Below, one piece after another: positions 12,895 to 41,263 of a stretch of 64,000 nt of DNA. Where the stretch lies: assembly GCF_022601675.1 (NCBI RefSeq), contig NZ_JAKVIL010000010.1, positions 62,001-126,000 on the forward strand, read 5' to 3'. Below the pieces are notes generated by a model. That model saw nothing but the letters and a program-made list of their open reading frames with translations, made no database searches and was not told the origin of the DNA. This stretch comes from Ancylobacter gelatini. GTDB lineage: Bacteria; Pseudomonadota; Alphaproteobacteria; Rhizobiales; Xanthobacteraceae. Within the stretch, counting starts at the first letter, position 1. Every line of letters starts with the position of its first letter. A program made the translations under genes and the position numbers.

Positions 12895-14190
12895 CTAGAG
12901 CACCTCGCCGCGCAGCAGCTTCGGGACCTGCCCGCCGAGTATCTGCCCGCCAAGACCCACCCCGCCGAGGCCGGCGGCGTCGCGGATGAAATGGCTCTTC
13001 AGCGCCGGCAGGCGCTCCACCAGCCCGAGCCCGACATCGCGCACCAGCCGCACCACGTCGGAATGCGGGGCGAAGAGACGATTCAGCCCATCGGTCGCCA
13101 TGCCCATGGCCAGCGTGTCGAAGCGGCGCCAGCGCTGGTAGCGCTCCAGCACGTCCGGCCCGCCAATATCGAGGCCGAGCCGCGCGGTGTCGGTCAACAC
13201 CTCCGCCAGCGCCGCCACGTCGCGCAGCCCCATATTGATGCCCTGCCCGGCAATGGGGTGGATGGTGTGGGCGGCATCGCCCACCAGCGCGAAGCGCTCG
13301 TCGATGAAACGCCGCGCCATCTGGAAGCCGAGCGGGAACGCGCGCGGCTCGTCGAGAATCTCGATCGCCCCCAGCTCCAGCCCGAAGCGCTGCTCCAGTT
13401 CGTCCAGCAGCAGCGCGCGGGGAAGGGCGAGCAGCCGCTCCGCCTGCGCCGTGCTCTCGGTCCACACGATGGAGCAGCGATTGCCGGTGAGCGGCAGCAT
13501 GGCGAACGGGCCGGCGGGCAGGAAATGCTCGATCGCGCGGCCCTCATGGTCGCGCTCATGGCCCACCGTCATCACGATGGCCGACTGGCCATAGGGCCAG
13601 CCCACCGTGGCGATGCCGGCCAGCGAACGCAGCCGCGAGCGCGCCCCGTCGCAGGCCGCCAGCACCGCGGCATTCAGCGCGAGCCCGTCGGCGAGGCGCA
13701 GGGCCATGCTGCCCGGCCCGGCCTCGAAGCTGGCGACGCCGGCCGGCAGCAGCGCGATGTCGCGCGCACGCACGGCCGCCAGCATCGCGTCCTGCAGCCG
13801 GGCGTTCGGCACCATATGCGCGAAAGGCTCGCCCGGTTCGACCTCGCCCTCGAAGGACAGGAACACCGGGCGCGCGGCGTCGCCGAGCTTGGAATCGGTG
13901 ATGTCCATGGCAAGGATCGGCTGCGCCTCACCCGCCACCTCATCCCACACGCCGACCGTCTCCAGCAGCCGGCGCGCGCCGGCGGCGAAGGCGGAGGCGC
14001 GCATGTCATCGCTGCGCGGATCGGACGCGGCGAAATGCGGATCGGCGACCGCGATGCGCGCCTCATCGCCCATGCCGTGGCGCAGGGCGAGCGCAAGGGC
14101 GAGCCCGGCCAGCCCGCCGCCCGCGACGACCGCATCGAAGCGCGCCGCACCGACGCCATCATCCCGGGAGCCGGTCGTCTGCTGTTCCAT
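12895..14190 (-). CDS. UbiH/UbiF/COQ6-family FAD monooxygenase
   Basis: A 431-residue FAD-dependent hydroxylase of the ubiquinone-biosynthesis group. It has an N-terminal dinucleotide fold DAVVAGGGLAGLALALAL (about residues 19-36). It also has the C-terminal FAD-binding motif ALVGDAAHTIHPIAGQGINMG and the typical NMGLRDVAALAE helix. The start ATG 14190 has GGAGGG nine bases upstream; the longer open frame to 14547 runs into tesB. Which ring position it hydroxylates cannot be told from sequence alone, so I give no symbol. It is divergent from tesB. Confidence 0.9.
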   Translation of the reverse strand: MEQQTTGSRDDGVGAARFDAVVAGGGLAGLALALALRHGMGDEARIAVADPHFAASDPRSDDMRASAFAAGARRLLETVGVWDEVAGEAQPILAMDITDSKLGDAARPVFLSFEGEVEPGEPFAHMVPNARLQDAMLAAVRARDIALLPAGVASFEAGPGSMALRLADGLALNAAVLAACDGARSRLRSLAGIATVGWPYGQSAIVMTVGHERDHEGRAIEHFLPAGPFAMLPLTGNRCSIVWTESTAQAERLLALPRALLLDELEQRFGLELGAIEILDEPRAFPLGFQMARRFIDERFALVGDAAHTIHPIAGQGINMGLRDVAALAEVLTDTARLGLDIGGPDVLERYQRWRRFDTLAMGMATDGLNRLFAPHSDVVRLVRDVGLGLVERLPALKSHFIRDAAGLGGVGLGGQILGGQVPKLLRGEVL

Positions 14191-14380
14191 CGCCGGACGC
14201 CCTCCGTTTCGCGCCGCGCCGCAACTTGTGCGCACTGCAACATATGCCTTAGCTGGATGCGGGGGACAATGCGCGGGGCTACGGATAGGTCCACACCCCC
14301 GGCGCTGCGCCGGATGCTTCGCCGCCACCTGCTTCGCCGTCTCGTCCTGCCCAGCCTGTCCGCCAGTACCGGGAGCCGCC

Positions 14381-15244
14381 ATGTCGACCATCGCCGAACT
14401 CATCCAGCTTCTCGATCTCGAAGCGCTGGAAGACAATCTGTTCCGCGGCATCAATCCGCCGGAATCCTGGCCGTTCCGCACCCGCGTCTTCGGCGGGCAG
14501 GTGCTGGCGCAGGCGCTGGTGGCGGCGCAGCGCACGGTGGAGGGCACGCTCGCCCATTCGCTGCACGCCTATTTCCTGCTGGCCGGCGATCCCAGCATCC
14601 CGATCATTTATGACGTCGAGCGGGTGCGCGACGGGCGCAGCTTCGCCACGCGCCGCGTGGTGGCGATCCAGCATGGCCGGCCGATCTTCATCATGTCGGT
14701 GTCGTTCCACCGCGAGGAGCCGGGGCTGGAACACCAGCTCGCCCTGCCGGACGGCGTGCCGCCGCCCGAGGAGGTGCCCTCGATCGAGAACCTGCCCGAG
14801 CATATGCTCGCCACGCTGCCGCAGCGGGCACGCGACTACTGGACGAGGCCGCGCCCGATCGAATTGCGCCCGGTCGGCCTCGGCATCCGCCGCGACGAGC
14901 CGCGCCGCGAGGTGTGGTTCCGGGCCAATGGCGCGCTGCCGGAGGGCGAGACGCTGCACCGGGCGGTGCTGGCCTACGCCTCGGACATGACGCTGCTGGA
15001 GGCCACCGCCGTGGTCCACGGCACCAGCGTGCTCGGCGAGGGCATCCAGGCCGCCAGCCTCGACCATGCGCTGTGGCTCCACCGCCCGTTCCGCGCCGAC
15101 GACTGGCTGCTCTACGCGCAGGACAGCCCGAGCGCGAGCGGGGCACGCGGCCTGGCGCGCGGACTGATCTATGACCGGCAGGGTCGGCTGGTGGCGTCGG
15201 TGGCGCAGGAGGGGCTGATCCGCCCCGTTGCCCTACCTAAATAG
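14381..15244 (+). CDS. tesB: acyl-CoA thioesterase II
   Basis: A 287-residue double-hotdog thioesterase that hydrolyses medium- and long-chain acyl-CoA. It opens with LIQLLDLEALEDNLFRG and has RVFGGQVLAQAL in the first hotdog. ASLDHALWLHRPFRADDWLLY, in the second hotdog, contains the family's catalytic Asp. The GGGAG ribosome site lies five bases before ATG 14381. The longer frame back to 13607 is antisense to the UbiH-type gene. Confidence 0.95.
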   Translation: MSTIAELIQLLDLEALEDNLFRGINPPESWPFRTRVFGGQVLAQALVAAQRTVEGTLAHSLHAYFLLAGDPSIPIIYDVERVRDGRSFATRRVVAIQHGRPIFIMSVSFHREEPGLEHQLALPDGVPPPEEVPSIENLPEHMLATLPQRARDYWTRPRPIELRPVGLGIRRDEPRREVWFRANGALPEGETLHRAVLAYASDMTLLEATAVVHGTSVLGEGIQAASLDHALWLHRPFRADDWLLYAQDSPSASGARGLARGLIYDRQGRLVASVAQEGLIRPVALPK

Positions 15245-29799: not shown

Positions 29800-31227
29800 T
29801 CAGACCGGGCGCGCCTGTGCATAGATGCTTTCCGCCATGTCGGTGACATCCAGCGTGAAGCGGTAATCGCTCGGCGGATGGGCGCGCTGCTCGCAATCCA
29901 TGCGCGGGCAGATGCGGCAGCCGACGCCGATCGGCACCGCCTGCGCGATGTCGGAAAGGTTCATGCCGTCGGAATAGACCATGGCCGGCGCGTGGGCGAT
30001 GTGGCAACCCAGCCCGATGGAGAGGTGCCGGCGCGGCGCATGGTGGCGATGCCCGCCCTTGGTAATGGAGCGCGCGATGCAGAAATAGCGCTGGCCCTCG
30101 GGCATCTGGCTGATCTGCACATTGATGCGCTCGGGGCTGAGGAACGCCGAATAGACGTTCCAGCGCGGGCAGGCGCCGGAATGGCGGGAGATGCGGATGC
30201 CCGACAGCGAGAAGCGCTTGGATATGTTGCCGGCTATGTCGGTGCGCACCAGATGCAGCGGAATGCCGGACGCGCCGGGCTTCTGCAGTGTGGTCATGCG
30301 GTGGCACACCTGCTCGAAGCTGACGCGGAAGCGTCGTTCGATCCGCTCGATATCGTAGCGCGTCTCGCGGCAGGCCTTGAGGAAGGGCTCATAGGGCATG
30401 AGCAGCGCGGCGGCGAAATAGCTCGCCAGCGCGTTGCGCATCAGCACCGGGGCGTCCGCCGAGAAGCTACCGGAGGCGATCAGCGCGTCGATCTGGGACG
30501 CCGCCGCCATCAGCCCGAGCTGGTGGGCCACCGCGAAAGTGGCGGTTTCGGGGGCCTGCGTGTCGGCGGTGATCAACTCGCGCCGCTCGGCATCGTAGCG
30601 GCGGGCGACGCCGGCCGGGAGCGCGGCGGTCCGCCATTGCAGGCCGAACACGTTGAACAGATAGGTGCGCAGCCCGTACTCGAAGGAATCATAGGAATCG
30701 GCGGCGGCGTCGATGTCGCGACGCACCCGCTCCGCCGCCTCCTCCAGTGTCGGGAAGTAATTGGCGTTTTCCTGGATGAAGTCCGACACCGCGTCGGTCG
30801 CGGGGTGGAATTCGCCGCCCTCGCCCCCGCCGAGATCGACCTCGCCGCGCTGGCGGGCGTCGCGCAGGGCGCGGTACTGGTCGAACAGGCGCACGACGGC
30901 GCGCCCGGCGGACGGGTTGGACGCGGCGAGGTCCCGCACATCCTGGCTGGTAAGCCCGCTTTCGGCGAACAGCTCGTCGCCGAACAGCTCCATCAGATCG
31001 CCGACGAGGCGGCTCTCGTCATTCTCCACCAGCTCGCCCGGCTCGATGCCGAAATAGCCCGCCAGCTTCATCAGCAGCGGCACGGTGATGCGCCGGCGAT
31101 TATGCTCGATCAGGTTGAGATAGCTCGCGGAAATGCCGAGCGCGACCGCCAGGTCCGCCTGCGAGATGCGCTTGCCCCGCCTGAGCCTCTGCACCCGGCT
31201 GCCGACGCGCGGTTCGCTGGCGAGCAT
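29800..31227 (-). CDS. ScfR/RamB-family XRE transcriptional regulator
   Basis: A 475-residue regulator with an N-terminal XRE helix-turn-helix (about 9-63: RVQRLRRGKRISQADLAVAL, SASYLNLIEHNRR). A degenerate ImmA/IrrE-like domain follows, then the ScfR C-terminal domain with VGCRICPRMDCEQRA. RamB of this family controls isocitrate lyase and acetate genes in Corynebacterium and related systems. Its position divergent from the aceA unit supports a glyoxylate-shunt role here, which is inference. AAAGGAGG lies five bases before the ATG. Two CTTTACA motifs lie just upstream of its start codon, suggesting autoregulation. Confidence 0.88.
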   Translation of the reverse strand: MLASEPRVGSRVQRLRRGKRISQADLAVALGISASYLNLIEHNRRRITVPLLMKLAGYFGIEPGELVENDESRLVGDLMELFGDELFAESGLTSQDVRDLAASNPSAGRAVVRLFDQYRALRDARQRGEVDLGGGEGGEFHPATDAVSDFIQENANYFPTLEEAAERVRRDIDAAADSYDSFEYGLRTYLFNVFGLQWRTAALPAGVARRYDAERRELITADTQAPETATFAVAHQLGLMAAASQIDALIASGSFSADAPVLMRNALASYFAAALLMPYEPFLKACRETRYDIERIERRFRVSFEQVCHRMTTLQKPGASGIPLHLVRTDIAGNISKRFSLSGIRISRHSGACPRWNVYSAFLSPERINVQISQMPEGQRYFCIARSITKGGHRHHAPRRHLSIGLGCHIAHAPAMVYSDGMNLSDIAQAVPIGVGCRICPRMDCEQRAHPPSDYRFTLDVTDMAESIYAQARPV

Positions 31228-31244: not shown

Positions 31245-31345
31245 ACTTTACAAAACCAACGGCGAAACTTTACAGGCATTATCAGCTTAACACATTCATT
31301 TATCTATAGTTCTTGCGTTTTCATGTCGAGTGGCAAATCTTTACA
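31245..31345. promoter_or_regulatory. CTTTACA repeats, candidate ScfR operator
   Basis: Direct copies of ACTTTACA are at 31245-31252 and 31267-31274, exactly 22 bases apart (two helical turns). A third copy, CTTTACA, is at 31339-31345. All lie in the 141-base gap between the scfR start and the small gene before aceA. The motif resembles the ACTTTGCAAA-type RamB operator I recall from Corynebacterium. The stretch also holds an AT-rich run (31278-31320) likely to carry the promoters. Confidence 0.5.
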
Positions 31346-31368: not shown

Positions 31369-31614
31369 ATGGAACGGACCCACCAGACCACGCGGACCCC
31401 GCACAATGGCGACGAGGAATTCGTGACCATTGTCGGCGGCACCGCCGAGGAGATCAGCCGCACCTTCCGCGAGCAGGGCCTCGCCGCGCAGGACTACACC
31501 ATCGTCCACCGCATCGGCCGCCACCGCCTCGCCATGCCGGAAGGCAGCGATCTCGCCTCCCTCCTCGCCGGCGGCCAGCTCGTCGCCGCCACCTATACGC
31601 GCCGTGGCCGCTAG
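31369..31614 (+). CDS. uncharacterised 81-residue protein upstream of aceA
   Basis: I do not recognise a family. The product is small, soluble and without a signal peptide. It has a polar Thr/His/Glu start, a middle section [21 protein letters not shown], then [17 protein letters not shown] and a basic end. The start is well supported: GGAGGA sits seven bases before ATG 31369, while the open frame from 31330 lacks a site. It lies between the ScfR regulator and isocitrate lyase and is probably the first gene of the aceA transcript, which suggests a link to glyoxylate-shunt control. That link is only inference. Confidence 0.75.
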
Positions 31615-31742: not shown

Positions 31743-33044
<1,302 letters not shown>

Positions 33045-33065
33045 ATAATGAATTCAAATTTTTGT

Positions 33066-33097
33066 CATCGGCCCGTTTCCGGGCCGGTGGCTTTTTT
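33066..33097 (+). terminator. Rho-independent terminator of aceA
   Basis: Ten-bp stem with core CGGCCCG (33069-33075) and CGGGCCG (33080-33086) around a TTTC loop, followed after GGC by six T (33092-33097). Confidence 0.88.
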
Positions 33098-33261
33098 CTC
33101 GTAAATCTCTGTGATTGTTGACAATTGGGAAATGTGCGGCCCCTCGGCCCCGGTGCAGCATCGACTATGTGCGATGTTGCGTCGCACCTCGTTTTTGCCG
33201 CATAGCAGCATGACTGACGCGGCTCAAGAGGGGCCGCGCCTTGACCGCAAGGAACCATTAG

Positions 33262-35433
33262 ATGAGCACGATCGACGTCGCCGGTCTCAAGGTCGATTCC
33301 ACCCTGTACAGCTTTGTCAACGATGAGGCGCTCGCCGGTACCGGGCTGAGCGCTGAAGCGTTCTGGAACGGCTTTGCCGGACTGGTAAGGGATTTCGCTC
33401 CGCGCAATCAGGCCCTGCTCGACAAGCGCGACGCGCTGCAGCTCTCCATCGACGAATGGCACCGCAGCCACCGCCACAAGGCGCAGGACCAGGCGAGCTA
33501 TGAGCGGTTCCTCGCCGATATCGGCTATCTCCAGCCCGAACCCGCCCCGTTCGAGGTGGTCACCGAGCGGGTGGACGACGAGCTGGCCCGCATCCCCGGC
33601 CCGCAGCTCGTGGTGCCGATCACCAATGCACGCTACGCCCTCAACGCCGCCAATGCGCGCTGGGGCAGCCTCTATGACGCGCTGTACGGCACCGACGCCA
33701 TTCCCGAGGACGACGGCGCCGGCCGCTCCAACGGCTTCAACCCCGTGCGCGCCGCGCGCGTGATCGCCAAGGCCCGCGCCTTCCTCGACGAGGCGGTGCC
33801 GCTGGCGGGCGCCAGCCACCGCGACGCCGGCGCCTATCTGGTGGAAGACGGCTCGCTCAAGGTGGCGCTGACCAACGGCTCGGCCACGACGCTCGCCGAT
33901 CCCGAGCAGTTCGCCGGTTTCATAGGCGCGCCCGAGGCGCCGTCCGCGATCCTGCTGGCGCATAACGGCCTGCATATCGAGCTGGTCATCGATCGCGGCC
34001 ACCGCATCGGCGCGACCGACGCCGCCGGCATTGCCGACGTCATCGTCGAGGCGGCGCTGACCACCATCGTCGATTTCGAGGACAGCGTCGCCGTGGTCGA
34101 TGCGCAGGACAAGGTGCTGGTCTACCGCAACTGGCTCGGCCTGATGCGCGGCAATCTCTCCGCCGATTTCGAGAAGGGCGGGCGCACCGTGGAGCGCCGT
34201 CTCAATGAGGACCGGATCTACACCGCGCCGGACGGCTCGACGGTGACCCTGCACGGGCGCAGCCTGCTGCTGGTGCGCAATGTCGGCCAGCACATGATGA
34301 CCGACGCGGTGCTGGACGAGGCCGGCAAGCCGATCCCCGAGACGCTGATCGACGCCGCCGTCACCTCGCTGATCGCGCTGCACGACCTCAAGGGCGAGGG
34401 CCCGATCCGCAACAGCCGCGCCGGCTCGGTCTATATCGTCAAGCCGAAGATGCACGGCCCGGAAGAGGTGGCGCTCGCCATCGAGCTGTTCGGCCGGGTC
34501 GAGGAACTGCTCGGCATGGCGCCGAAGACGCTCAAGATCGGCATCATGGACGAGGAGCGCCGCACCAGCGCCAACCTCTCGGCCGCGATCCATGCGGCGC
34601 GCGAGCGCGTGGTGTTCATCAATACCGGCTTCCTCGACCGCACCGGCGACGAGATCCACACCTCGATGGAAGCCGGCCCGATGGTCCGCAAGGCCGAGAT
34701 GAAGGCGCAGGCCTGGATCAAGTCCTATGAGGACAACAATGTCGACGCCGGCCTCGCCGCCCGTCTCGACGGCCATGGCCAGATCGGCAAGGGCATGTGG
34801 GCGATGCCCGACCGCATGGCCGACATGATGGAGCAGAAGATCGCCCATCCCCGCGCCGGCGCCAACACCGCCTGGGTGCCCTCGCCGACCGCCGCCACGC
34901 TGCACGCCCTGCACTATCACCAGATCAACGTGTTCGAGCGCCAGGCGGAGCTGCGCCACCGCGCCCGCGCCGACCAGCACGATCTGCTGACGATCCCCGT
35001 CGATTCCAAGGGCAATTGGGAGCCGACCTCGGTGCAGGAGGAGCTGGACAACAACATCCAGGGCATCCTCGGCTACGTCGTGCGCTGGATCGATCAGGGC
35101 GTCGGCTGTTCCAAGGTGCCCGACATTCACGATGTCGGGCTGATGGAAGACCGCGCCACGCTTCGCATCTCCTCGCAGCACGTCGCCAACTGGCTGCTGC
35201 ACGGCGTCGTCACCGAGGAGCAGGTCGAGGAAACGCTGCGCCGCATGGCCAGGGTGGTGGACGGCCAGAACGCCGGCGACCCGGACTACACGCCGATGGC
35301 CCCGGCCTATGACGGCTTCGCCTTCCGCGCCGCCCGCGATCTCGTCTTCGAGGGCCGCCGCCAGCCCAACGGCTACACCGAGTTCATCCTCACCGCACGC
35401 CGCCGTGAGGCCAAGGCCGCCGCGGCGGCGTGA
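33262..35433 (+). CDS. glcB: malate synthase G
   Basis: Condenses glyoxylate with acetyl-CoA to malate, the second step of the glyoxylate shunt. At 723 residues it is the monomeric G type. Readable segments include [67 protein letters not shown] (in part) and the C-terminal catalytic region [19 protein letters not shown] lies eight bases before the ATG. The 164-base space after the aceA terminator holds a GTGCGA-N7-TCGCAC inverted repeat (33169-33187) but no CTTTACA motif. Confidence 0.98.
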
Positions 35434-40942: not shown

Positions 40943-41263
40943 TCAGATCGACGAATTGATCCACTGCACCAGCTTGGCCTTCGGCGCGGCGCCGACCTGG
41001 CGGGCCGCGAGCTGGCCGTCCTTGAACAGCAGCAGGGTCGGGATCGACATGATGCCGTATTTGGACGCCGTGCCGGGATTCTCGTCGACGTTCAGCTTCA
41101 CGATCTTCAGCTTGCCTTCGAGCTCGCCGGAAACCTCGTCGAGCACCGGGGCGACCATGCGGCACGGGCCGCACCATTCCGCCCAGAAATCGACGAGCAC
41201 GGGCTCGGAGGACTTGATGACATCAGCCTCGAAAGACTGGTCCGACACTTTTTCGACGCCCAT
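40943..41263 (-). CDS. trxA: thioredoxin
   Basis: General cytoplasmic disulfide reductant, 106 residues. The active site WCGPC is at 30-34, inside [15 protein letters not shown]. The cis-Pro segment [12 protein letters not shown] is intact. ATG 41263 has AAAGG seven bases upstream; the open frame from 41323 has no support. It follows addA by 67 bases on the same strand. Confidence 0.97.

Follow-up and report, generated by a model that had tools for sequence, protein, structure and literature searches.

A conserved block upstream of the malate synthase G gene glcB in Ancylobacter probably carries a PhaR-type operator

Results and discussion

An inverted repeat lying before the malate synthase G gene glcB of Ancylobacter gelatini probably belongs to an operator of PhaR (AniA), a regulator that attaches to granules of polyhydroxybutyrate (PHB). 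On this proposal PhaR most likely represses glcB until PHB granules titrate it away, and glcB is probably a new target of a known regulator. The window referred to throughout is the whole 64,000-nucleotide stretch of contig NZ_JAKVIL010000010.1 that was analysed, and the genome to which it belongs is G000 in our numbering. The features nearest to glcB are as follows.

33163 to 33188, plus strand: conserved 26-bp block GACTATGTGCGATGTTGCGTCGCACC, present in 25 of 29 glcB upstream regions of the genus
33169 to 33187, no strand assigned: inverted repeat GTGCGA-N7-TCGCAC, with all six pairs intact in just 4 of 25 relatives
33178 to 33189, plus strand: PhaR-type box 1 TGCGTCGCACCT, 11 of 12 positions matching TGCRNYGCASMA
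33193 to 33213, plus strand: PhaR-type site 2 TTTTGCCGCATAGCAGCATGA, scoring 15.5 with a Sinorhizobium meliloti PhaR matrix; CATAGC present here in 15 of 25 loci with the block
33262 to 35433, plus strand: glcB, malate synthase G, 723 amino acids

A conserved block surrounds the inverted repeat

The first-pass annotation drew attention to the dyad GTGCGATGTTGCGTCGCAC about 75 bases before glcB, and the sequence bears this out, the repeat ending 74 bases before the ATG at 33262. Its exact sequence occurs once in the window and once in the 4.31-Mb genome. With up to two mismatches there are five matches in the window against 8.5 expected, so that the bare dyad is not enriched, and the same is true of the genome, where dyads with one mismatch are found at six places against 77 for the reversed pattern. 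Of 29 stretches of 259 bases adjoining glcB, 25 contain perfect inverted repeats of at least 6 bp with loops of 3 to 12 bases, some of these stretches lying downstream of the gene since minus-strand loci were not oriented. A bare perfect 6-bp dyad is unremarkable and constitutes weak evidence; what exceeds chance is conservation.

Conservation was assessed in 30 genomes of the genus, 29 of which have glcB. They provide 29 usable glcB upstream regions, including that of a second copy in G021; locus L033, where glcB is partial at a contig end, was left out of all genus counts. The check that the annotation had proposed, conservation of the repeat in relatives, has a divided outcome. The 26-bp block around the repeat is common to 25 of the 29 upstream regions in the form GACTAwnTGCGrTrTTGCrnyGCAc, with a mean pairwise identity of 0.87 against 0.31 and 0.41 in its flanks, and within it GACTA (with a single exception at one base), TGCG, T, TTGC and GCA are invariant. 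The exact 6-bp dyad, on the other hand, has all six pairs intact in just four of these 25 loci (L005, L014, L018 and L020). From the outside in, the pairs are kept in 15, 25, 25, 25, 21 and 10 of the 25, and the conserved unit is something other than the exact dyad.

These counts bear on the idea that the repeat forms a leader stem-loop, be it a terminator, an attenuator or an RNA switch. The segment 33169-33187 together with CTCGTTTTTG does score as terminator-like, but a stem whose outer pair is retained in 15 of 25 loci and whose inner pair is retained in 10 is not what such a structure would lead one to expect. The T run also differs among relatives, as judged by eye, and the only Rfam match at E ≤ 1 is to Xoo8, at 19.5 bits against a gathering score of 90, which argues against a riboswitch or small RNA. 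We give a leader stem-loop hardly any credence.

When 101 genomes are searched for the block with up to two mismatches, 26 of the 30 from the genus contain a single site each. A further 31 from the family contain none, and another 40 from the order contain two sites in all, each with two mismatches. The reversed pattern gives two matches in the 101 genomes, equal to the number outside the genus. Each of the 26 genus sites is on the strand of glcB and no more than 150 bases upstream of the gene. Four genomes of the genus have no site: G003, G007, G021 and G019, and G019 also has no glcB. In four genomes (G004, G011, G017 and G022) the isocitrate lyase gene aceA lies elsewhere and the block nevertheless accompanies glcB; the block therefore belongs to glcB.

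By eye, CACAGCTGTGCCGG is conserved 3′ of the block in the ten loci that lack CATAGC (L007-L009, L011-L013, L015, L016, L019 and L020). Many other Xanthobacteraceae (L198-L222) have a different glcB upstream sequence in common, resembling CTTCTC...GGCTTTGGCGCTAAAAG, again as seen by eye.

PhaR-type boxes before glcB

The invariant TGC-RNY-GCA of the block is the core, TGCRNYGCA, of the PhaR (AniA) consensus TGCRNYGCASMA, which DNase I footprints helped to define in Bradyrhizobium diazoefficiens (PMC6201568). In box 1 the palindromic core occupies 33178-33186 and matches at nine of nine positions. Site 2, 21 bp downstream of box 1, contains CGCATAGCA at 33199-33207 with two mismatches to the nine-base core. 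Site 2 is not uniform in the genus, being without CATAGC in 10 of the 25 block loci; in eight of the ten loci without it a further core stands some 80 bp before box 1, the exceptions being L016 and L020.

In 28 of the 29 genus loci the core TGCRNYGCA lies no more than 200 bp upstream of glcB, against about 1.4 loci expected under an order-1 Markov model, although the genus loci are related and these are therefore not 28 independent events. Outside the genus it precedes glcB in none of 26 family loci, fetched from among 36 non-genus genomes with a strong match, and in none of 71 wider loci. The latter are drawn from the 78 loci L037-L114, seven of which were excluded because their upstream sequences were short or shifted (L039, L070, L078, L079, L090, L091 and L104). 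As far as sampled, the PhaR-type core before glcB is confined to the genus. Within the window, matches to the 12-mer with one mismatch number 34 against 27.7 expected, a figure reached in 18 of 100 shuffles.

Three of the four loci that lack the block keep the core: L010 has a 12-of-12 box, L031 one on the opposite strand and L032 a 9-of-9 core, the chances of finding a core being 0.105, 0.029 and 0.060, respectively. This retention supports the assignment to PhaR while falling short of proof, and L031 and L032 are alike. The two glcB copies of G021 differ in this respect: L010, away from aceA, is the one with the 12-of-12 box, and L034, beside aceA, has no box.

The same retention weakens another account of the block, namely that it is the operator of a different, glcB-specific regulator that reads GACTA-TGCG-TTGC-GCA as a whole, its likeness to PhaR sites being secondary. 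The invariant bases do reach into GACTA and TGCG, outside the PhaR 12-mer, and the full block is single-copy and specific to glcB, unlike phasin promoters. Yet GATATTGC-RNY-GCAC is found at a phasin locus too, GACTAT can be read as a -10 region, and a view by eye of seven neighbourhoods in six genomes (G003, G007, G011, G021 twice, G022 and G023), using the first 200 residues of each ORF, revealed no conspicuous regulator gene next to glcB apart from ramB. We consider such a regulator unlikely. The left part of the block, GACTAwnTGCG, which extends beyond the published PhaR 12-mer, may combine a -10 region with an additional TGC half-site; alternatively, it may be the site of a different protein.

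A redox response regulator of the RegA/ActR/PrrA type, binding a GCG-type inverted repeat that overlaps the promoter, is a further candidate. GCGATGTTGCGTCGC fits GNGRYRTTNNGNCGC, which we take to be a relaxed form of the RegA/ActR/PrrA consensus, and G000 encodes a RegA-family protein that scores above the cut-off. In Brucella suis, aceA and malate synthase are lower in the wild type than in a regA mutant (PMC5435760). Against this, the relaxed pattern matches G000 39 times compared with 35 for its reverse, L024 and L027 (TTGCATTGC) break the pattern, and PrrA is described as having no strong consensus in Rhodobacter sphaeroides (PMC4263372). A RegA-type site seems to us extremely improbable. 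Patterns for FixK/FNR, NtrC, LysR and CtrA were dismissed by eye.

Support from a matrix of S. meliloti sites

The assignment to PhaR can also be examined with sites from a second organism. A 21-position matrix was built from 25 S. meliloti sites, together with their reverse complements, in promoters whose PhaR binding is classed as Efficient or Weak (PMC12542648, Table 3). It excludes three of the four exoH sites as well as acyP and rhaR, which are reverse-strand duplicates. Among 63,980 window positions, 14225 ranks first (18.5), 33193 second (15.5) and 33172 eighth (7.9). The second- and eighth-ranked sites thus both fall in the gap between aceA and glcB, 21 bp apart, and a pair of sites scoring as well within these 216 bp arose in 17 of 2000 dinucleotide shuffles.

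Across the genus, the best score in the 260 bp upstream of glcB is at least 7.3 in 28 of the 29 loci, L034 scoring 2.2. For comparison, 244 pieces of the window, each of 260 bp, have a median best score of -2.4, a 95th percentile of 5.7 and a maximum of 18.5, and the best score in the 500 bp upstream of aceA in 29 loci is 3.2. For the 28 loci with a core, between 0 and 28 of 300 shuffles of the single locus score as high as the real sequence, L014 being the worst, and for L034 239 of 300 do so. At 16 of the 29 loci the observed score is reached in at most two of 300 shuffles.

The probable glcB promoter

Two promoters can be proposed from the alignment, each predicted from sequence.

33165 to 33170, plus strand: candidate -10 CTATGT of promoter model A
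33177 to 33206, plus strand: candidate promoter model B, with TTGCGT at 33177-33182, an 18-nt spacer and CATAGC at 33201-33206

For model A, 16 of 25 relatives have CTTGC at a distance of 16-18 nt ahead of CTATGT, and this genome has CTCGGC at 33143-33148. For model B, CATAGC follows TTGCRN by 17 or 18 nt in 15 of 25 relatives, and another T/A-rich hexamer is present in the other 10. Box 1 overlaps candidate elements of both predicted promoters: under model A it would lie over the transcription start, and under model B it would lie on the -35 element with site 2 on the -10. Either geometry suits repression, since PhaR boxes overlap the -35 element at B. diazoefficiens phaP4 (PMC6201568) and lie between the -10 and the start at S. 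meliloti SMa1961 (PMC12542648). An upstream ORF running from ATG 33167 to TAG 33203-33205 was rejected, its start codon not being kept in relatives as judged by eye.

aceA and its RamB-like boxes

The first-pass annotation suggested that glcB may answer to a different regulator than aceA, and compared the two genes by the CTTTACA motif. The relevant features of the window upstream of glcB are these.

29800 to 31227, minus strand: RamB/ScfR-type regulator gene, divergent to aceA, with PF09856 and HTH_3 domains
31246 to 31345, plus strand: three CTTTACA boxes, RamB-like, at 31246, 31268 and 31339; absent at glcB
31743 to 33044, plus strand: aceA, isocitrate lyase
33064 to 33101, plus strand: hairpin resembling an intrinsic terminator (33064-33091) and T run after aceA, separating aceA from glcB

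CTTTACA is found upstream of aceA in 29 of 29 genus loci (within 900 bp) and, as the annotation had it for the window, is missing at glcB, with 0 of 29 loci having it within 220 bp upstream on either strand. The longer TGACAANNCTTACA-like box of class-2 RamB was compared at glcB by eye only. Together with the PhaR-type core at 28 of 29 glcB loci, this supports separate regulators for the two genes.

The simplest opposing view is that RamB controls glcB as it probably controls aceA. RamB activates a malate synthase-isocitrate lyase operon in Paracoccus (PMC10370305), and aceA stands directly before glcB, 161-478 bases away, in 23 of the 29 genus genomes. However, the lack of CTTTACA at every glcB upstream region and the terminator-like hairpin between the two genes in the window both tell against it, and we regard RamB control of glcB as very unlikely. 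At aceA itself RamB would presumably bind the CTTTACA boxes, the first two of which are 22 bp apart. The TTTACA spacing is alike in many genus genomes and these are probable RamB boxes. The match of the divergent regulator to the RamB model NF038139 is below the cut-off, at 392.7 of 700 bits.

The PhaR core occurs in the 500 bp upstream of aceA in 8 of 29 loci, by eye inside a small ORF there. In the window this ORF, at 31369-31614 between ramB and aceA, encodes 81 amino acids and has no Pfam match; by eye, a similar sequence precedes aceA in the genus. The aceA of this genome is 90-92% identical to those of the four genomes in which aceA and glcB lie apart and 82-85% identical to the others, and full-length first-copy glcB is 74-79% identical to all genus genomes. 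From these sequences, aceA and glcB may have different histories.

PhaR and its likely targets in the genome

PhaR is encoded in G000, with both Pfam domains PF07879 and PF05233, and in all 30 genus genomes. In G000 phaR adjoins a gene that by eye encodes a thiolase, and no exact core was found in L259, which comprises phaR and its upstream gap. Three phasin-family matches are present in G000, and two phasin loci have paired boxes. At L290 these are TGCGATGCACAA and TGCGCTGCA, 30 bp apart around TTGACG; at L291 they are TGCATTGCA and TGCAGTGCA, 18 bp apart. One L291 box reads GATATTGCAGTGCAC, its arm being identical to that of GATATTGCGCCGCAC, which stands at glcB in relatives. Other boxes in G000 lie 40 bp before a PHB-depolymerase-type esterase gene and 75 bp before a polysaccharide export protein gene, both classes being reported for PhaR in rhizobia (PMC12542648, PMC6201568).

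Genome-wide, the 12-mer consensus has 92 strand matches against 29 for the reversed pattern. Thirty of the 92 were examined with a rough ORF caller; seven of them, at six distinct places, lie between ORFs and 23 lie inside ORFs, so that many of the consensus matches in the genome are probably due to chance.

A proposed link between PHB stores and malate synthase

Phasin and depolymerase genes are repressed by PhaR, which leaves its sites in response to PHB (PMC6201568, PMC12542648). Box 1, and in this genome site 2 as well, would cover the probable core promoter of glcB. When PHB is low, free PhaR would bind and most likely block transcription of glcB; as PHB accumulates, the granules would titrate PhaR away and malate synthase G would be made. 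The aceA gene would be under separate control through its own RamB-like boxes. It is from sequence that we infer each of these steps: the binding of PhaR, repression rather than activation, PHB as the signal, and RamB at aceA. Repression is the direction that we favour for glcB by inference only, because PhaR is also able to activate.

A broader and distinctly more tentative suggestion is that the two glyoxylate-cycle enzymes of the genus follow different carbon signals, with CoA esters acting on isocitrate lyase through RamB and the PHB store acting on malate synthase through PhaR. The full cycle would then run only when both signals agree, and under full storage malate synthase could be induced on its own, to clear glyoxylate arising from other sources. 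PhaR serves as a gauge of the PHB store; were it tied directly to malate synthase, storage would control the glyoxylate cycle, and a pathway that is often regarded as a single regulated unit would be divided. This bears on PHB-producing bacteria in biotechnology.

Comparison with known systems

A close parallel is in B. diazoefficiens, where TGCRNYGCASMA boxes are present, as they are here, twice at phaP1 and once at phaP4, overlapping the -35 element (PMC6201568, PMC10888616). The phaP1 boxes are TGCGACGCACAA and TGCGTCGCACAA, and box 1 of the window differs from the latter only in its last two bases (PMC6201568). The systems differ in that the target here is malate synthase G, in that box 1 has the extra invariant left part GACTAwnTGCG, and in spacing, the sites being 21 bp apart here and 29 at phaP1 (positions -101 and -72, PMC10888616).

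The S. meliloti PhaR/AniA site (PMC12542648) is also similar, reading WNWD2NYGCRNYGCRNH2WNW with AT-rich arms and occurring as close pairs at phaP1. Its targets are similar, too, in including central carbon metabolism (gltA, ppdK and zwf). In contrast, a putative isocitrate lyase belongs there to a module that also holds PhaR-repressed phasins, and malate synthase does not appear in the part of the site table covered and is not named in the main text of that paper (PMC12542648). The term malate synthase is likewise absent from the main text of PMC10888616 and PMC6201568. Among the titles and abstract openings listed in a search of openly available papers, none gives malate synthase as a PhaR target.

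For aceA, a close comparison is the class-2 RamB of Paracoccus denitrificans (PMC10370305). There as here, ramB is divergent to glyoxylate-cycle genes, and its boxes TGACAAACCTTACA and TGACAATACTGACT, read off by comparing the wild-type and mutated oligonucleotides 46 and 48, resemble CTTTACA at aceA. The difference is that both enzymes belong to one RamB-controlled operon in P. denitrificans (PMC10370305), whereas here glcB has PhaR-type boxes and no CTTTACA.

Other strong matrix sites

The best matrix site of the window, 14225-14245 (18.5), lies between two genes named by eye: a minus-strand FAD-monooxygenase-like gene with a likely start at 14190, and a plus-strand acyl-CoA thioesterase-like gene starting at 14381. 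The third best, 40954-40974 (13.8), lies between the gene of a thiamine-pyrophosphate enzyme and one that by eye is helicase/nuclease-like. Finally, at L014, L018, L023 and L025 a further strong PhaR-matrix site, scoring 15.7 to 20.1, is present about 255 bp before glcB.
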